Shown here: positions 2,163 to 16,083 of the stretch, piece by piece
Position numbering within the stretch: position 1 is the first letter of the stretch
Layout: each line of letters opens with the position of its first letter
Source: Pseudomonadota bacterium
GTDB taxonomy: Bacteria > Pseudomonadota > Gammaproteobacteria > Burkholderiales > Methylophilaceae
DNA length: 64,000 nt
Direction: 5' to 3'
NCBI GenBank assembly: GCA_020053735.1
Contig: JAGVMP010000006.1
Location: 32,021 to 96,020 of the forward strand
The notes under the pieces: generated by a model
What the model saw: the letters and a program-made list of their open reading frames with translations, nothing else
The model's database searches: none
What the model was told of the DNA's origin: nothing
Translations under genes and position numbers: made by a program

Positions 2163-2891
2163 CTAGCACCAATCTGGGCTTGGAAGCGCCGAGAATACTT
2201 GCTTAAGGCCAGCACCCCAACCTTGCCGAATGGTTGAGTAATACGGGTCGTTTTCGCTAATACGCTGTTTGCAATCGGCATGCAGACTATCTGTGCGATA
2301 AATCAACAAATCAATAGGTGCTGCCACAGAAACATTACTGCGTATGGTGGAATCGAACGAAATGAGCAAACATTTCACAGCATCCATCATATCGGTGTTG
2401 TATTTCACTACACGATCAATAATCGGTTTCCCATATTTAGTTTCGCCAATTTGAACATAAGGCGTCTCATGATTAATTTCGATAAAATTGCCCGCTGCAT
2501 ACACATTAAATAATCGCGGTGCCTCACCTTTAATTTGACCGCCAATCAAAATACTGGCATTGAAATCAATATCATGGTCTTTCAAAAAAGAGCCATCGCG
2601 CGCAAAAGTAGCGCGCATTTCATCGCCAACCAAAGCCGCAGCCTCAAACAAGCTGCCCACATTATTAAGATGTTTGTTATCAGTGTCGCTTAATTTTAGT
2701 TTTAGCGAATTCACCACGGATTGTGTAATGGCTAAATTTCCCGCGGTTAACAACACAATCACGCGCTCATTTTTTACCTCGAAAATATGCATTTTTGAAG
2801 CAATCGCCACTTGATCGAGCCCAGCATTGGTGCGGGTGTCAGAGGCAAAAACCATGCCCTCCTCTAATAAAAAACCAACGCAATATGTCAT
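2163..2891 (-). CDS. Anbu-type (ancestral beta subunit) proteasome-like peptidase
   Basis: MTYCVGFLLEEGMVFASDTRTNAGLDQVAIASKMHIFE: Thr2 nucleophile after Met removal, SDTRTNAG and SKMHIF motifs; neighbours typical of Anbu loci. Confidence 0.88.
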   Translation of the reverse strand: MTYCVGFLLEEGMVFASDTRTNAGLDQVAIASKMHIFEVKNERVIVLLTAGNLAITQSVVNSLKLKLSDTDNKHLNNVGSLFEAAALVGDEMRATFARDGSFLKDHDIDFNASILIGGQIKGEAPRLFNVYAAGNFIEINHETPYVQIGETKYGKPIIDRVVKYNTDMMDAVKCLLISFDSTIRSNVSVAAPIDLLIYRTDSLHADCKQRISENDPYYSTIRQGWGAGLKQVFSALPSPDWC

Positions 2892-3011: not shown

Positions 3012-4214
3012 TTACATAAAACCTGCCGCCTCAGTGAGTTTAGCGACATTCTCTCGGGTAAAAAATCCATCAAAACTGCCATAACGTTGCACATATTCGA
3101 TAATCAGCGATGAATGTTCTGAGGCGTTGGAAAATATTTGCTTTAAGCCTTGCTCTTTAGAACCAATCACGTCCAGCAAAAAACCTTTGCCGTTTTCTGC
3201 AATCGCATTCACCACATAGTCAATATTCTCTTTGCCCTTATATTCGCCATCTTTTACCGAGATTGCCATATGGTGCAAACGTGGGCCGTAGTTGCGCACA
3301 AAGGTTTCGGTGGGTGAGGGTAAATGTTCTAAATGATTGATAAAATAAGGGCTATTGTTGGCTGTAAATACTTTGGCTGGGCTTTTGGATTCGGGAATTG
3401 CATGCGCACTTTTAGTGACATTGGTGGACGAATTTTGATCTTTAATATTATAAGCACCCCAAAAATAATAACTGGTGAGGGACAAATATTCTAGAATCGC
3501 CACTTCGCGGTTTTGGCTGTAAACCCGCGTTGCTAAATGATCGAGTGGTAATAATAAATCGGCAACACCTATTTTATTTTGTAAAGCTTTCGCTTCAAGG
3601 TAGGCGGCCTGCACATCAGGCTTAATGACGCTTACGCCCAGCGCATACACCCTCAATTCGTCTGGCTCGCGCTCTAAGTAAGCCACAATATTGTGCGTAT
3701 ATGGCGACGGTTTACTAATGGCTAAATTACCAGGCAGCTCAAGTTTTCGCGCATCGTCTTGATTAAAAAAACGAAAGCCTCGCTGCTGCTGAATTTTAAC
3801 CACACTGTGTAAATCGTCCACCCGAATAATTTCACCCATGTAACGGCTATTGGGTTTTTTGGCGCCTATCGGATAAACCTCATTTAGGCTTCTAAAAATG
3901 CCGCGCAAGTTAGGGTCTTTCACTTCGCGCAGTAAAATATCGGGGGAATTCAAGTCAATACGCAGTACATGGCTAAGATGCTGCTCAGTTTCTAACGTCA
4001 CCAAGTAATGATAGGGCGTCATCAGCGCCAGCTCAGCAATGTATTTGGTTGAATGTTCTGGATCCACCGAAATCATCAGCGCGTCTATCTCATGAATCAT
4101 GCCTGTTAAGCCAAGCTGATCACGCTCTTCTAACAGACGGATCAAGTTTTCTTCAAAAAATGCTGAATTTTCCTTATCGCCATGGCGATTAAATTGTAGT
4201 GAGTTGATTAGCAT
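3012..4214 (-). CDS. Uncharacterised protein with a C-terminal VOC/4-hydroxyphenylpyruvate dioxygenase-like domain
   Basis: C-terminal motifs LDHLATRV ... GPRLHHMAISV ... LIIEYVQRYGSFDGFFTRENVAKL resemble the H/H/E metal-ligand motifs and tail of HPPD-type VOC enzymes; the N-terminal half is not recognised. Confidence 0.6.
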   Translation of the reverse strand: MLINSLQFNRHGDKENSAFFEENLIRLLEERDQLGLTGMIHEIDALMISVDPEHSTKYIAELALMTPYHYLVTLETEQHLSHVLRIDLNSPDILLREVKDPNLRGIFRSLNEVYPIGAKKPNSRYMGEIIRVDDLHSVVKIQQQRGFRFFNQDDARKLELPGNLAISKPSPYTHNIVAYLEREPDELRVYALGVSVIKPDVQAAYLEAKALQNKIGVADLLLPLDHLATRVYSQNREVAILEYLSLTSYYFWGAYNIKDQNSSTNVTKSAHAIPESKSPAKVFTANNSPYFINHLEHLPSPTETFVRNYGPRLHHMAISVKDGEYKGKENIDYVVNAIAENGKGFLLDVIGSKEQGLKQIFSNASEHSSLIIEYVQRYGSFDGFFTRENVAKLTEAAGFM

Positions 4215-4221
4215 ATTTAAC

Positions 4222-5076
4222 TTACTGCTGTGCTTGTTGAGCTTGTTGTATTTCTTGCGCTTCTTTTAATAGCGCTATCTGATTCATTTTGTGTTGCTGG
4301 TGAATTGGCGCACCCGCTTGATTCACTACCACGCTAGTGGCCATCCCTTCTACCCCACCACCAGAGCGCATACCTGTCACAGGGCTAGCGGCACGGTAAT
4401 CTAAGCCAGTGGCCAAGCGAATATAAGTTTCACCCGCATGGCAGCCGTTAGATACATCAATGCTTTGCCAGACACTATCAAACCACACGTCCACCCATGC
4501 GTGGCTTTGCATCAAACTACCATCTTGGGTGAATAAGTAACCACTGACATAGCGCGCTGGGTAACCTAAGCTACGACAACAGGCAATAAATACATGCGCA
4601 TGGTCTTGGCACACGCCTTTGCCTAATTTAAATGCTTCAATCGCCGTGGTGGTCACTTCCGTTGCGCCTTTAATATAGCCCACTTTATCTACCAGTGCAT
4701 GCATTAAATCGTCAATCGGTTTGTGTCGGTAATTGGCTGCAAACGCAGTAATTGCCTCATCAGCTAGTGTTAACGGCGTATCACGCATATAAATAGCCAA
4801 TGGCAACGCCTGTTGCTGTGAGTAATCATTAACACCAGTTTCAACCTCACCCATCACCGTTACGCTTAACTCAGCATGTGGTTGATCAACTACCAAAGTA
4901 TGCGTGGTATTACCAAACGCATCTTCAAAACCGTCCAACTGACCTTGTGTTTTAATATCCCAGTACTTGACATGCTGACCAAAGCCACTTTGCGGCGTCA
5001 GCCGTAATTGTTGAATAGTATAGTTGACAGGCGAGCTGTATACATACTGTGTGTGATGTTCGATAATTAAACGCAT
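4222..5076 (-). CDS. Transglutaminase-like cysteine protease family protein
   Basis: MRLIIEHHTQYVYSSPVNYTIQQLRLTP, catalytic GKGVCQDHAHVFIACCRSLGYPARYVSGYL and SHAWVDVWF. Confidence 0.92.
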   Translation of the reverse strand: MRLIIEHHTQYVYSSPVNYTIQQLRLTPQSGFGQHVKYWDIKTQGQLDGFEDAFGNTTHTLVVDQPHAELSVTVMGEVETGVNDYSQQQALPLAIYMRDTPLTLADEAITAFAANYRHKPIDDLMHALVDKVGYIKGATEVTTTAIEAFKLGKGVCQDHAHVFIACCRSLGYPARYVSGYLFTQDGSLMQSHAWVDVWFDSVWQSIDVSNGCHAGETYIRLATGLDYRAASPVTGMRSGGGVEGMATSVVVNQAGAPIHQQHKMNQIALLKEAQEIQQAQQAQQ

Positions 5077-5123: not shown

Positions 5124-6071
5124 CTAACTAGCATTAATACTTAAAAAAGCACGTTGAATTTCTGCGCCTAATAGATTATTTGAATCAATAAAATCACTTA
5201 AAAACTCATGCAAACCGCGCTGAAAAATATCCTGCATTTTGCCGTAACGCAATTTGGCATGCAACTCGCCTGCAAGCCTTCTGCACTCTACCTGACGCCT
5301 GCCAGAAAGCTGTTCTAATATAGGCGTAATTTCATCCAAACAAGCATGTAGTGAGCGCGGCATATCACGTCTTAACACCAATAACTCTGCCACCCGCCAA
5401 GGCTCTATGGTATCGCTGAATATTTTTTGATAGGCCTGAAACGCCGAAACCGAGCGCAATACTGCGCTCCATTCATAATAATCAACTGCGCCACCTACTT
5501 CTTCTTCATCTGGCAACAGTAGATGGTATTTCACATCTAACAGCCGTGCGGTATTATCAGCTCGCTCAATAAACGTGCCCAAACGCACAAAACTAAAAGC
5601 ATCGTCGCGCAACATCGTGCCGAAACAAACGCCCCTAAATAAATGTGAACGCGCTTTTACCCAATCACAGAATTCTCGTAGCCCAGTTTTAGATAAGTCA
5701 GCGCCTCTAAATTGATCAAACTCCAGCCAGAGTGCGTTAATATTTTCCCAAGTTTCTGATGTCATATCGACACGAACTGCCCGTGCATTCTCGCGTGCAT
5801 TGCGTAGTGCGTTGTATATGCTAGAGGGGTTATTTACGTCCATCGACAAATAATGAATCACGTTAGCGGCATCTACACTACCGTATTCTTCTTCGTATAG
5901 ATCAACATTGCCTGCAATTTCTAATGCTGGAAGCCAAAGCGCAGCCTCACTTTGCGCAGCATTTGGCACTAGCGACATGCTATAAGTCACCTCCAATACC
6001 CGCGCCATGTTCTCTGCCCGCTCAATGTAACGCGCCATCCAATATAAATGATCAGCTGTTCTACTTAACAT
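5124..6071 (-). CDS. Alpha-E domain-containing protein
   Basis: MLSRTADHLYWMARYIERAENMARVLEVTYSMSL is characteristic; start overlaps the end of the upstream ATP-grasp gene. Confidence 0.92.
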   Translation of the reverse strand: MLSRTADHLYWMARYIERAENMARVLEVTYSMSLVPNAAQSEAALWLPALEIAGNVDLYEEEYGSVDAANVIHYLSMDVNNPSSIYNALRNARENARAVRVDMTSETWENINALWLEFDQFRGADLSKTGLREFCDWVKARSHLFRGVCFGTMLRDDAFSFVRLGTFIERADNTARLLDVKYHLLLPDEEEVGGAVDYYEWSAVLRSVSAFQAYQKIFSDTIEPWRVAELLVLRRDMPRSLHACLDEITPILEQLSGRRQVECRRLAGELHAKLRYGKMQDIFQRGLHEFLSDFIDSNNLLGAEIQRAFLSINAS

Positions 6072-7609
6072 GCTGGCTCGGCTATTTTTTGTTTAGCTTT
6101 TTGTTTGGTCTTTATCGTGGTTGCTTGTTTGGTTTCGCGCGAGGTTTCTGATCCTTGAGTATCTTCTAACACCTCAGCCTCTAACACCCAGGTGTCTTTG
6201 GTGCCACCGCCTTGAGATGAATTGACCACCAATGAACCCGCTTTTAATGCTACACGGCATAATGCCCCTGGCACTAAGGTGACTGTTTTTCCAGATAACA
6301 CAAACGGCCGCAAATCCACATGGCGCGGGGCAATACCTGCTTCTACCAACGTTGGGCAAGTAGATAGTGCAAGTGTAGGTTGCGCGATATAGTTGGCGGG
6401 TTTTGATACGATACGCAGTCTAAATTCTTCGATTTCTTTTTTAGTGGCCGCTGGTCCAACCAACATGCCATAACCACCAGAGCCCTGCACCTCTTTCACC
6501 ACCAGCTCATGCAAATGCGCTAATGTGTATTGCAAATCCTCTTCTTTACTCAGCTCGTAAGTAGGCACATTTTCTAGTAATGGCTCTTCATTCAAATAAA
6601 ACTTAATCATTTCAGGCACATAAATATAAGTCGCTTTATCATCTGCCACACCCGTACCAACTGCATTTGCCAAAGTCACGCCACCATTGCGATACACCGA
6701 TAACAGGCCAGGCACTCCCAACATAGAGTTTGGATTGAATACCAGCGGGTCGATGTAATCATCGTCAATCCGCCTGTAAATCACATCAACACGTTGTGGG
6801 CCTTGTGTGGTACGCATGTATACCGCATTGTTGCGCACAAATAAATCGGTACCTTCAACTAACTCAATACCCATTTGTTGCGCTAAAAACGCATGCTCAA
6901 AATACGCGCTGTTGTAAGCGCCTGGTGACAACAAAACTACGGTTGGTTCCTGACTGTTTGTTTGAGCAACCGCACGCAAATTTTTAAGTAATACTTGGGG
7001 GTAATGGTCCACTGGCGCCACAGAATAACGGCGAAATAAATCAGGGAAAAGCCGCATCATCATTTTGCGGTCTTCTAACATATACGACACACCAGAAGGC
7101 GTACGCAAATTATCTTCTAATACATAAAACTGCGACTCACTGGTGCGCACTAAATCTATCCCAGCAACATGCGCATATATTTGTCGTGGCACATCAACAC
7201 CCACCATCTCAGGCCGATATTGAGAGTTAGCTAAAATGCTTGAAGGTATGATGCCTGCTTGAATAATTTCTTGCTGATGATAAATGTCGTGTAAAAACAT
7301 ATTGAGTGCTTTTACGCGTTGAATTGCGCCCGCAGATAATTTCTCCCACTCATTTGCGGAGATTATTCTAGGGATGACATCAAATGGTATTAAGCGCTCA
7401 GCGCCATCTTCCTCACCATAGACATTAAAAGTAATACCGACGCGCCGAAACAATAACTCAGCCTCTTGGCGCTTGCTTTCTAGCTGGTGGTGAGGAATAT
7501 CTTTTAGCCAATTTTGATAAGCGCTATAAATCTGGCGCACTCGACTTTCATCTAGATCAACTGCATCTAATTGCATTTCGTCAAAAAAAGATTCTGTTGA
7601 TTTTTGCAT
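6065..7609 (-). CDS. Circularly permuted ATP-grasp type 2 protein
   Basis: RVGITFNVYGEEDGAERLIPFDVIPRII, YVLEDNLRTPSGVSYMLEDRKMMMRLFPDL, VVKEVQGSGGYGMLVGPAA. Confidence 0.93.
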   Translation of the reverse strand: MQKSTESFFDEMQLDAVDLDESRVRQIYSAYQNWLKDIPHHQLESKRQEAELLFRRVGITFNVYGEEDGAERLIPFDVIPRIISANEWEKLSAGAIQRVKALNMFLHDIYHQQEIIQAGIIPSSILANSQYRPEMVGVDVPRQIYAHVAGIDLVRTSESQFYVLEDNLRTPSGVSYMLEDRKMMMRLFPDLFRRYSVAPVDHYPQVLLKNLRAVAQTNSQEPTVVLLSPGAYNSAYFEHAFLAQQMGIELVEGTDLFVRNNAVYMRTTQGPQRVDVIYRRIDDDYIDPLVFNPNSMLGVPGLLSVYRNGGVTLANAVGTGVADDKATYIYVPEMIKFYLNEEPLLENVPTYELSKEEDLQYTLAHLHELVVKEVQGSGGYGMLVGPAATKKEIEEFRLRIVSKPANYIAQPTLALSTCPTLVEAGIAPRHVDLRPFVLSGKTVTLVPGALCRVALKAGSLVVNSSQGGGTKDTWVLEAEVLEDTQGSETSRETKQATTIKTKQKAKQKIAEPAC

Positions 7610-8789: not shown

Positions 8790-9731
8790 ATGGCAACCAG
8801 CAAAAACCAGACTCTGCCCATTGGCTACATGCTACAAGACTACATTATCACTAAAGTCTTAAGCACGGGCGGCTTTAGCTTTGTGTACTTGGCGCAAGAC
8901 ATGAACAAAAATACAGTAGCCATTAAGGAATATATGCCCACTGGCTTGGCGCTACGCGAAGAAGGTGCCACTGTGCTGCTGGGTAACGATGATGATGCTT
9001 CTACTTTTAAGCACGGCCTAAAATGTTTTTTTGAAGAAGGCTTGGCGCTGGCTAAAATTGACCACAAAAACATCGTACGTGTGACCAATTTTTTTAGAGA
9101 AAACAACACCGTTTATATGGTGATGCAGTATGAGCGCGGTAAATCGCTACAGGATTACATCCTTTCTCAACCCGAACCTGTCAACGAAAAATTTGTGCGC
9201 CGCGTGTTTAGCGAGCTACTCAATGGCTTGCGTGAAGTGCACGCGCAGAAACTGCTGCATTTAGATATTAAACCTGCCAATATTTACATTCGGCTTGACG
9301 GATCGCCGGTGTTATTAGATTTTGGTTCGGCGAGACAAACGTTGACACAAGCGCAGTCCAAACTTTCCCCCAGCTACACGCCGGGCTTTGCACCACCAGA
9401 GCAGTATTTTGAACGTAAACAATTAGGGCCTTGGAGCGATATTTACAGCGTGGGTGCCAGCATGTATTCCTGCATGATGCGTTCTGCGCCAATTGCCGCG
9501 AATTTGCGCGTCAATGAAGATCACTTGGTACCTGCGATAAAAATAGGGAAAGGTATTTATACCGAGGAGCTATTAAAAACCATCGATGGCTGCTTAAAGC
9601 TAGATTACATGCAACGGCCACAAAGCGTTTTTTCGCTGCAAAAAACCCTGTTAGAAGTCGTCAAGCCCTTGCCTATTAAAAAGCCAAGTTTGGTCAATAA
9701 AATCAAGAATGTACTCAACAAGCCACTTTAA
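8790..9731 (+). CDS. Serine/threonine protein kinase
   Basis: Kinase motifs VAIKEYMP, LLHLDIKPANIYIRLDGSPVLLDFGSARQ, APPEQY. Confidence 0.94.
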   Translation: MATSKNQTLPIGYMLQDYIITKVLSTGGFSFVYLAQDMNKNTVAIKEYMPTGLALREEGATVLLGNDDDASTFKHGLKCFFEEGLALAKIDHKNIVRVTNFFRENNTVYMVMQYERGKSLQDYILSQPEPVNEKFVRRVFSELLNGLREVHAQKLLHLDIKPANIYIRLDGSPVLLDFGSARQTLTQAQSKLSPSYTPGFAPPEQYFERKQLGPWSDIYSVGASMYSCMMRSAPIAANLRVNEDHLVPAIKIGKGIYTEELLKTIDGCLKLDYMQRPQSVFSLQKTLLEVVKPLPIKKPSLVNKIKNVLNKPL

Positions 9732-9748
9732 GCTGACATTAAAAAATC

Positions 9749-10678
9749 ATGAAATTTACTATTTATCAAAATAGTCGCCAGGGACCAAGACCATACAACC
9801 AAGATAGGCTGGCTTACTCTTACAGCAAAGATGCGTTGTTGCTGGTGTTGGCTGATGGCATGGGCGGTCATCGTAATGGCGAAGTGGCCGCGCAACTTGC
9901 AGTAAAAACACTTACAGATGCATTTCAACGTTTGGCTGTGCCTTCACTTAGCAGTCCAGCCAAGTTTTTAATAGAACATATTCAACAAGTGCACGACATG
10001 ATTGAAAACGTGACGCAAGCTGAAGAGTTTGTAGAATCGCCGCGCACCACCATCGTCGCTGCCATTATTCAACGTGGCTATTTATGGTGTGCGCATGTTG
10101 GCGATTCGCGCTTGTATCACTTCCGTAATGGGCATTTGCTGTTTCGCACCGAAGACCACTCTGTTGTACAGTCGCTATACAAAAAAGGCATGATTACTAA
10201 AGACGAAATGGCCACGCACCCCTATAAAAACAAAATTTATAACTGCGTGGGTGGCGAAACTCCACCACAAATTGACTTGTCGGATAGGCACGAATTGCTT
10301 GAAGGTGACACCGTACTGCTGTGTACTGATGGCGTTTGGGGCGTAATAGACGACCAGCAAATTAAAGAAATTATTCAGCGCAATACCGATATTACTGCAG
10401 TGACTACCGATTTAATGGATAGCGCGGATTTTGCTAGTGACGAACGCGGTGACAACATGAGTGCGATTGGCCTGCAATGGGGCGACCGGCTTACTGGCCA
10501 AGTGGCAGTCTCAACTCAGCTGATGCCTTTGGGTGAAACGACCACCATTATGAACCCAGTGACGCAACAAGTAATAGATGGTAGTAATCCAATGGAACTA
10601 TCGGATGATGACATTGAGAACACCATCCTGGCGATTCAAAGCGCTTTAAACAAAACTCAGCAGAAACCTAAAATTTAA
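9749..10678 (+). CDS. PP2C-family serine/threonine phosphatase
   Basis: RPYNQDRLAYS, LADGMGGHRNGEVAAQ, AHVGDSRLYHFRNG, LCTDGVWGVIDDQ, DNMSAIGLQW. Confidence 0.95.
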   Translation: MKFTIYQNSRQGPRPYNQDRLAYSYSKDALLLVLADGMGGHRNGEVAAQLAVKTLTDAFQRLAVPSLSSPAKFLIEHIQQVHDMIENVTQAEEFVESPRTTIVAAIIQRGYLWCAHVGDSRLYHFRNGHLLFRTEDHSVVQSLYKKGMITKDEMATHPYKNKIYNCVGGETPPQIDLSDRHELLEGDTVLLCTDGVWGVIDDQQIKEIIQRNTDITAVTTDLMDSADFASDERGDNMSAIGLQWGDRLTGQVAVSTQLMPLGETTTIMNPVTQQVIDGSNPMELSDDDIENTILAIQSALNKTQQKPKI

Positions 10679-14649: not shown

Positions 14650-16083
14650 CTAAACTAGGAGCTCTTTGCGCGTATCGAGTAAGGCAATCAACATTAAAAT
14701 CTCGCTTACCACCGCTTTGCCAAAGCCGGCACGCTCGCCTCCGCGGTTATCGGTAATCAGATCACGCAAATAAGCAGTGGCTAATTCGCCTGGCCACACC
14801 CCACAAAGCTGCTCCATAATATGTGGGAACTCTTCTAAGCTTTCTGGCACGACCATTACCGTATTCACTGCCGCTTCCTTTTCGTGCCACACCGGCGTCA
14901 TCACATTAAAAGTGAGATGCATACTTTCTGCATACGTCTCAAATTGATCTTTTAAATTAAGTTTTCTAAACACTTCCAGCAAATACAACCAATGGTTAAT
15001 CGAGGCTTTTGGCTGCGACTCTATGGTCATTTTTAGATGCGCTATCGCATCTGTACCACGATTGACGCTCATCAACAATTTAGCCTCTTCTAGTGTTGAG
15101 TTCAACCTTGATTCCACCTCTTTCGCTGCCTGCTGTTGCAGGATGACTTCTGGACTGTCTTCTTTTGGTGGATTGGTTTTTTCAAAATAACCACTAAAAT
15201 CAGTGACCGTGTTTTGCATTTTGCTGGCAGTAAAACTGAACTTTTCAAACATATGCCCACGATATTTTTTAAGCGCAAAAGCGCCTAATAGCAACAAGCC
15301 TACTATAGCCAGTGCAGCTTTTACTAAATCCATATTCAGGTTATCAATGAAAGAAGTTTCAGCTGGCGAAACTTGCATAGCCTCTGACACTGGCGTTTGC
15401 TTAATCTCTTGATTTAAGTTTTTAAATACTTTTTTAGAAGGCTGCGTAGCGGCTGGTTCTGCTGCTGGTTCTGCCGCTAGGTTGTTTTGATTGGCTACGG
15501 GCGGCTCAATATTTACTGAATCAGCATTGGGTAAGTTAAGCGTTTTGTCAAAAATCAATTTCAGATCATCTAGCTTGGCCTGTAACACCACTATTTTTTC
15601 GTTTAGTTTTGATAGCTGCTCTTTTAAAAAAGCATTTTTATTGACTAACTCTTTATACTCTTGCTGCAGTTTTTCTGGCACTAGCTGTATCACCCGCTTC
15701 AGGCCATAGCTCATTGTTAAGGTTTGCTTGTTAGATTTATTGCTAGCTTTGACGGCGCTTTTAGAAAGCGATTTAAGTGTTGGAATGACCAATAAAGTGG
15801 GCGCATCAAAACGTGCTGACGCCTTGAGTTGAGATTGCGTATCCGCATTTAAACGCAAAGTTTTGGCCACAAATTGCTGTTGCATGGCACGATTTTTTGG
15901 GTAAAACATGCGCGCAAGGTCGTTCACACTTTCGCCTGGCAACATCGGCCACGTCATGCTGCTAGCGGTTTCCTGCTCAGAGACCATGCTAGTATCTATC
16001 AGCAACGCATCCTCTGCGCTGGCCACAAAACTACTGCCAAACATCAGCGCAAGCAATCCGATAAGATAAAAAGCGCGCCTCAA
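14650..16083 (-). CDS. FimV-like membrane protein
   Basis: Signal peptide, MTWPMLPGESVNDLARMFYPKNRAMQQQFVAKTL, TM helix and a C-terminal TPR-like region. Confidence 0.7.
   Translation of the reverse strand: MRRAFYLIGLLALMFGSSFVASAEDALLIDTSMVSEQETASSMTWPMLPGESVNDLARMFYPKNRAMQQQFVAKTLRLNADTQSQLKASARFDAPTLLVIPTLKSLSKSAVKASNKSNKQTLTMSYGLKRVIQLVPEKLQQEYKELVNKNAFLKEQLSKLNEKIVVLQAKLDDLKLIFDKTLNLPNADSVNIEPPVANQNNLAAEPAAEPAATQPSKKVFKNLNQEIKQTPVSEAMQVSPAETSFIDNLNMDLVKAALAIVGLLLLGAFALKKYRGHMFEKFSFTASKMQNTVTDFSGYFEKTNPPKEDSPEVILQQQAAKEVESRLNSTLEEAKLLMSVNRGTDAIAHLKMTIESQPKASINHWLYLLEVFRKLNLKDQFETYAESMHLTFNVMTPVWHEKEAAVNTVMVVPESLEEFPHIMEQLCGVWPGELATAYLRDLITDNRGGERAGFGKAVVSEILMLIALLDTRKELLV

Follow-up and report, generated by a model that had tools for sequence, protein, structure and literature searches.

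The proteasome-fold peptidase homologue Anbu is encoded, according to the available descriptions of its operon, together with ATP-grasp, Alpha-E and transglutaminase proteins (PMC5666114; PMC6376114), and the locus described here raises the question of what an additional enzyme does among these genes. The window, a 64,000-nucleotide stretch of contig JAGVMP010000006.1 (positions 32,021 to 96,020) from a Methylophilaceae genome, contains an ATG-initiated open reading frame at complement(3012..4214) that encodes a protein of 400 amino acids, hereafter the VOC protein. An earlier note on this DNA had delimited the same reading frame without stating its strand, which is the minus strand, and had not mentioned the operon around it, the most informative feature of the locus. 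The gene probably encodes an unnamed Fe(II) oxygenase with the fold of 4-hydroxyphenylpyruvate dioxygenase (HPPD), accessory to the Alpha-E/ATP-grasp/transglutaminase system, of which Anbu is often a part.

The relationship of the C-terminal half to HPPD was reached through an intermediate sequence. Searches with the single sequence gave no useful match in Pfam, NCBIfam or PDB sequences, and a profile of the close relatives had no PDB match; a weak NCBIfam match to FlgE (E 0.027) and a Pfam match to Rotavirus VP1 were judged to be chance, and a weak genome match (G930, E 0.0073) was an unrelated reading frame. A search of plasmids returned a single weak match, between residues 202-395 and a chorismate mutase-VOC fusion of Sinorhizobium meliloti (WP_088196659). 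The pairwise BLASTP comparison of the two gave an E value of 3e-9 (25% over 194 residues) and the hhalign profile comparison one of 3e-10, and the best PDB matches of the VOC domain of the fusion protein are HPPD and hydroxymandelate synthase (HMS), at E ~1e-14. The resemblance of the ligand motifs is not due to chance, because the VOC protein is connected by that BLASTP match to a protein whose VOC domain matches HPPD and HMS.

Which residues of HPPD bind Fe(II) is well established, and in the joint alignment H226, H315 and E373 of the VOC protein fall over these three ligands, Q359 falls over the Gln of LLQIFT, and the segment GFFTRENVAKLTEA falls over the C-terminal helix GFGEGNFKALFESIE of HPPD. 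The alignments establish the three residues as the sequence counterparts of the HPPD metal ligands. They also bear out the H/H/E motifs that the earlier note had read in the C-terminal half from three peptides, LDHLATRV (residues 224-231), GPRLHHMAISV (310-320) and a third at 370-389. Across 55 aligned relatives, which take in class-level relatives of ~39% identity, H226, H315, E373, R230, R312, H314, Q359 and N389 are invariant (55/55). The gene is under purifying selection, with a ratio of nonsynonymous to synonymous substitution rates of ~0.02 against three near relatives of the same genus. In one metagenome-assembled genome (L118:3959-5152, minus strand) the gene ends in a stop six codons ahead of the usual C-terminal end and carries Glu in place of G310, both of which may be sequence errors.

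The fold was predicted with AlphaFold2, for which 17 near-identical relatives gave a predicted local distance difference test score (pLDDT) of 35, and the 55 relatives, distant ones included, gave a usable model (pLDDT 83.4; predicted template modelling score 0.88). The model comprises four VOC modules in two domains, followed by a helix at 387-399. Module 1 is predicted to consist of strands at 40-50, 69-75, 79-85 and 92-98 with a helix at 55-65, and module 2 of strands at 123-132, 164-167 and 176-181 with a helix at 135-144; the strands of module 3 lie at 221-230, 249-257, 262-269 and 280-286, and those of module 4 at 314-320, 359-364 and 371-376. By the order of these elements, H226, H315 and E373 sit on the strands expected for the ligands. 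When the model was compared with PDB using Foldseek, every one of the 50 matches listed was HPPD or HMS, with E values from 5e-15, 390-441 alignment columns over the 400-residue query, 9-15% identity and TM-scores of 0.51-0.60 on the query. An HPPD-type fold is predicted with confidence. Since these matches span the full length, the N-terminal half, which the earlier note had called unrecognisable, is predicted to be an HPPD-type N-domain as well, and the VOC fold that it had anticipated is present in the model, with HPPD and HMS as the closest solved structures.

The VOC gene lies in a row of minus-strand genes (Table 1) that runs from the ATP-grasp gene through the Alpha-E, transglutaminase-like, VOC and Anbu genes to guanylate kinase (2136-1525), with gaps of -7, 47, 7, 120 and 26 bp in that order. 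T2, D18 and K33 of the encoded Anbu (numbered with Met1) match the residues given for Yersinia bercovieri Anbu as catalytic candidates, Thr1, Asp17 and Lys32(33) (PMC6376114). The Anbu papers describe its physiological role as unconfirmed and report no peptidase activity in those authors' assays (PMC5666114; PMC6376114), and a search of the literature brought up nothing on the function of the Alpha-E system other than the Anbu papers and co-occurrence notes. PADLOC gave no match to known anti-phage defence systems, leaving a defence role without support, and promoter and terminator scans were near chance level and were not used.

Outside the window, 18 of the other 36 Methylophilaceae genomes have a close relative of the VOC protein (71-98%), and one further genome holds a decayed remnant. 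The family is sparse, being present in 7 of 398 sampled Pseudomonadota genomes, and no member was found in viral contigs, plasmids or Escherichia coli, the last searched at the DNA level only. A scan of GTDB species genomes gave 224 encoding loci; the 80 that were retained have at least 70% identity and come from Beta-, Gamma- and Zetaproteobacteria. Distant relatives (~39% identity) were found in a small number of genomes that belong to a different class, probably the Alphaproteobacteria.

Among the 80 loci, counted with profiles built from the neighbour genes and with many loci ending at contig ends, ATP-grasp/Alpha-E genes lie within ~9 kb of the VOC gene in 58 (35/37 from Methylophilaceae and 23/43 from others), and no other neighbour family exceeds 12/80. 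The nearest cassette gene lies upstream in some loci and downstream in others, and whether it shares the strand of the VOC gene varies too; because at least 13 changes of arrangement are needed on the gene tree, the linkage has been re-formed or retained through rearrangement. Within Methylophilaceae, Alpha-E is present in 19/19 VOC-positive vs 7/18 VOC-negative genomes (Fisher P 4e-5, not corrected for kinship), and it occurs in 24/25 further VOC-positive genomes reached through the loci, mostly without local linkage; the background frequency is 233 of 398 sampled Pseudomonadota genomes (59%), and most of the genomes with Alpha-E are without the VOC gene. In one genome of the same genus (G012; locus L117, C6:96000-115000, ~9445-9700) all that remains of the operon between intact yicC and gmk is C-terminal pieces of the VOC gene and Anbu; ATP-grasp, Alpha-E and transglutaminase are gone, so that the whole operon was lost together there. 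In the Beta-, Gamma- and Zetaproteobacteria, and only in these, the VOC gene belongs regularly to the Anbu operon and is inherited with it; it has the character of an optional fifth member of the Alpha-E/ATP-grasp/transglutaminase/Anbu system.

Some genomes carry a second cassette beside the VOC gene, composed of a transglutaminase, an ATP-grasp-Alpha-E fusion and a transglutaminase-DUF2126 amidoligase. In a Methylophilus locus (L049:12933-19181) the fusion of circularly permuted ATP-grasp and Alpha-E in such a cassette has 846 amino acids. All ten VOC-positive Methylophilaceae genomes outside the genus of the window have two Alpha-E genes each, and VOC-negative genomes have one or none.

Table 1. 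Position of the VOC gene, of its predicted functional residues and of the neighbouring operon genes in the window
Feature	Position	Strand	Basis
HPPD-fold VOC protein, 400 aa	3012..4214	-	Open reading frame; AlphaFold2 model; Foldseek against PDB
N-terminal half, two beta-alpha-beta modules without metal ligands, predicted equivalent of the HPPD N-domain	3612..4214	-	AlphaFold2 secondary structure; Foldseek
C-terminal half, putative catalytic VOC domain, two modules and C-terminal helix	3012..3611	-	BLASTP, hhalign, AlphaFold2
H226 (LDHLATR), predicted Fe(II) ligand 1	3537..3539	-	Aligned with the His of HPPD LDH; 55/55
R230, at H226+4	3525..3527	-	55/55; spacing as in DHxAxR of DUF1338 proteins
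H315 (GPRLHH), predicted Fe(II) ligand 2	3270..3272	-	Aligned with the His of HPPD GEGIQH; 55/55
Q359 (KQIFS), counterpart of the Gln in HPPD LLQIFT	3138..3140	-	Alignment; 55/55
E373 (IIEYVQR), predicted Fe(II) ligand 3	3096..3098	-	Aligned with the Glu of HPPD FFEIIQR; 55/55
Circularly permuted ATP-grasp protein	6065..7609	-	CP_ATPgrasp_2 E 4.5e-165; overlaps Alpha-E by 7 bp
Alpha-E protein	5124..6071	-	PF04168 E 3.4e-101
Transglutaminase-like protein, 7 bp upstream of the VOC gene	4222..5076	-	Bact_transglu_N E 3e-21; Transglut_core E 5e-20; Cys/His/Asp motifs present
Anbu, proteasome-fold peptidase homologue	2163..2891	-	Pfam Proteasome E 1.8e-8; Thr2/Asp18/Lys33 kept

Divergent from the operon and adjoining it are a Ser/Thr protein kinase-like gene and, after it, a PP2C-like phosphatase gene (8790-10678, plus strand), so designated from a reading of their sequences; the position of this pair is conserved in several Methylophilaceae loci. 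Farther along, a 477-residue open reading frame without a Pfam match at E 1e-5 (14650-16083, minus strand) adjoins the argininosuccinate lyase gene.

HPPD-like chemistry is the best guess for the VOC protein because the triad, Gln359 and the C-terminal helix are conserved. In HPPD, HMS and the 2-hydroxyglutarate synthase HglS the keto acid binds Fe(II) as a bidentate ligand and is decarboxylated with O2, and the product is then hydroxylated (PMC7286885). We infer a comparable course here, in which Fe(II) would be held by H226, H315 and E373 and chelated by an alpha-keto acid, or by a peptide end bearing one; O2 would decarboxylate the keto acid as in those three enzymes, and the resulting Fe(IV)-oxo species would hydroxylate the same molecule, an anionic group of which may be held by R230. 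The linkage suggests that the enzyme acts on a building block or a product of the ligase pair, so that the hydroxylated acid might be attached to, or removed from, an amine or peptide by the ATP-grasp and transglutaminase-like enzymes, with Anbu doing the trimming.

The most serious competing explanation, although we regard it as unlikely, is a free-standing metabolic oxygenase which, like HglS or HPPD, would act on a free dicarboxylic keto acid such as 2-oxoadipate and would lie near Alpha-E genes only because the two are regulated together, for instance when nitrogen is limiting. R230 stands at H226+4, the DHxAxR spacing of DUF1338 proteins (DHVAFR in the proteins L155 and L156), a correspondence of spacing and not of superposed structures, and Arg74 of HglS binds the distal carboxylate of 2-oxoadipate (PMC7286885); the equivalence of R230 to Arg74 may be taken as a lead from sequence. 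The alphaproteobacterial-type members, which lie away from the cassette, and the genomes that lack Alpha-E would also suit such an enzyme. It accounts poorly, however, for the repeated re-linkage to the same gene set, for the near-universal co-occurrence with Alpha-E in Beta-, Gamma- and Zetaproteobacteria and for the joint decay of the VOC gene and Anbu, and membership of the HglS/DUF1338 family was not supported, as PF07063 gave no match and hhalign aligned DUF1338 proteins out of register. Unlikely, too, is a VOC-fold metalloenzyme other than an oxygenase (a lyase, epimerase, hydrolase or amide-forming enzyme) whose substrate would be what the ATP-grasp and transglutaminase enzymes produce. 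VOC enzymes are chemically diverse, His314 replaces a Gln of HPPD, and the invariant polar residues R307, N308 and R312 are unlike HPPD, but the predicted site has an H/H/E triad and not four ligands, the QIF motif and the C-terminal helix are those of HPPD and HMS, and the best fold matches, among those listed, are all to these two enzymes.

A true HPPD or HMS would fit the fold and the ligands and is nevertheless very improbable, given that TIGR01263 is matched neither in the protein nor in the genome, that identity is 12-15% and that GPRLHH stands where HPPD has GxGxQH. The earlier note had considered a role other than homogentisate formation plausible, and the operon context, the genome without an HPPD match and the His in place of Gln ahead of ligand 2 now favour it. 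That the protein is catalytically dead, with a structural or regulatory function, is hardly credible, because invariance of the proposed ligands and pocket residues across classes, at ~39% overall identity, is not expected of a dead site.

Several points weigh against an HPPD-fold oxygenase serving the Alpha-E system. VOC-fold enzymes include non-oxygenases, and the protein has no significant direct match to any Pfam VOC model. The hhalign comparison with HPPD alone, in register across the whole C-domain, is yet weak (E 0.009 in one comparison; probability 4.5%); the identity quoted above is low, and the last module of the model, which holds E373, has a pLDDT of 57-74. In the stretches examined, the relatives of alphaproteobacterial type show no linkage to the cassette, and Alpha-E is missing from 3/7 of their genomes. 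The proposed role in the pathway is indirect, because the function of the Alpha-E system is itself unproven.

The proposed HPPD-fold oxygenase may nonetheless reveal the chemistry of this gene set, because it travels with ATP-grasp, Alpha-E, transglutaminase and Anbu. Tentatively, we propose that it adds one more family of intramolecular keto-acid oxygenases to HPPD, HMS and HglS, and that it is the oxidative enzyme so far missing from the system. It would form or break down a hydroxylated acid, which the ligases would couple to a peptide or polyamine or set free from one. If so, the system would be a pathway of biosynthesis or tagging, and its product a new modified metabolite or a new mark on protein. 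A conserved partner with assayable chemistry (Fe(II), O2, keto acid) would provide a handle on the substrate of a widespread and unexplained gene set, with O2 uptake, CO2 release and hydroxylated products as measurable readouts, and the small HPPD/HMS/HglS group would gain a family unnamed in Pfam and NCBIfam.

Compared with known enzymes, the VOC protein shares with HPPD (TIGR01263) the predicted full-length fold of two domains and four modules, the positions of the HHE iron ligands, and the QIF[ST], E-x-x-Q-R and C-terminal GF..N..AL helix motifs. It differs from HPPD in giving no match to TIGR01263 at E 1, in His314 where HPPD has the Gln ahead of the second His (GxGxQH; His in 55/55), in the additional Arg230 and R307/R312, and in a gene context other than tyrosine catabolism. 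Next after HPPD among the structural matches comes HMS (2r5v, 3zgj), with TM-scores, normalised on the target, of up to 0.71; it has the triad in common, but by sequence the VOC protein is no member of the HMS family and its gene does not lie in a glycopeptide or antibiotic cluster. HglS and its DUF1338 relatives (PF07063) are HHE-type keto-acid oxygenases with a VOC fold; they were not among the 50 structure matches listed. Beyond the family, no sequence found is closer to the catalytic half than the chorismate mutase-VOC protein, which has GLKQIFS and the triad in common with it; this fusion protein differs in having one VOC domain only, fused to chorismate mutase, and in adjoining a non-ribosomal peptide synthetase gene. 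Its gene, on a Sinorhizobium plasmid (L113:4746-5528), is also accompanied by pabB and prephenate dehydrogenase, a neighbourhood that looks like a natural product cluster using an aromatic acid. The VOC gene does not appear among the operon members named in the available text of PMC5666114 and PMC6376114, the original system-prediction literature lying outside this scope. Compared with the Anbu operon as described there, all four published genes are present here in the published order (PMC6376114), and a fifth gene, for a predicted HPPD-fold enzyme, sits between transglutaminase and Anbu.
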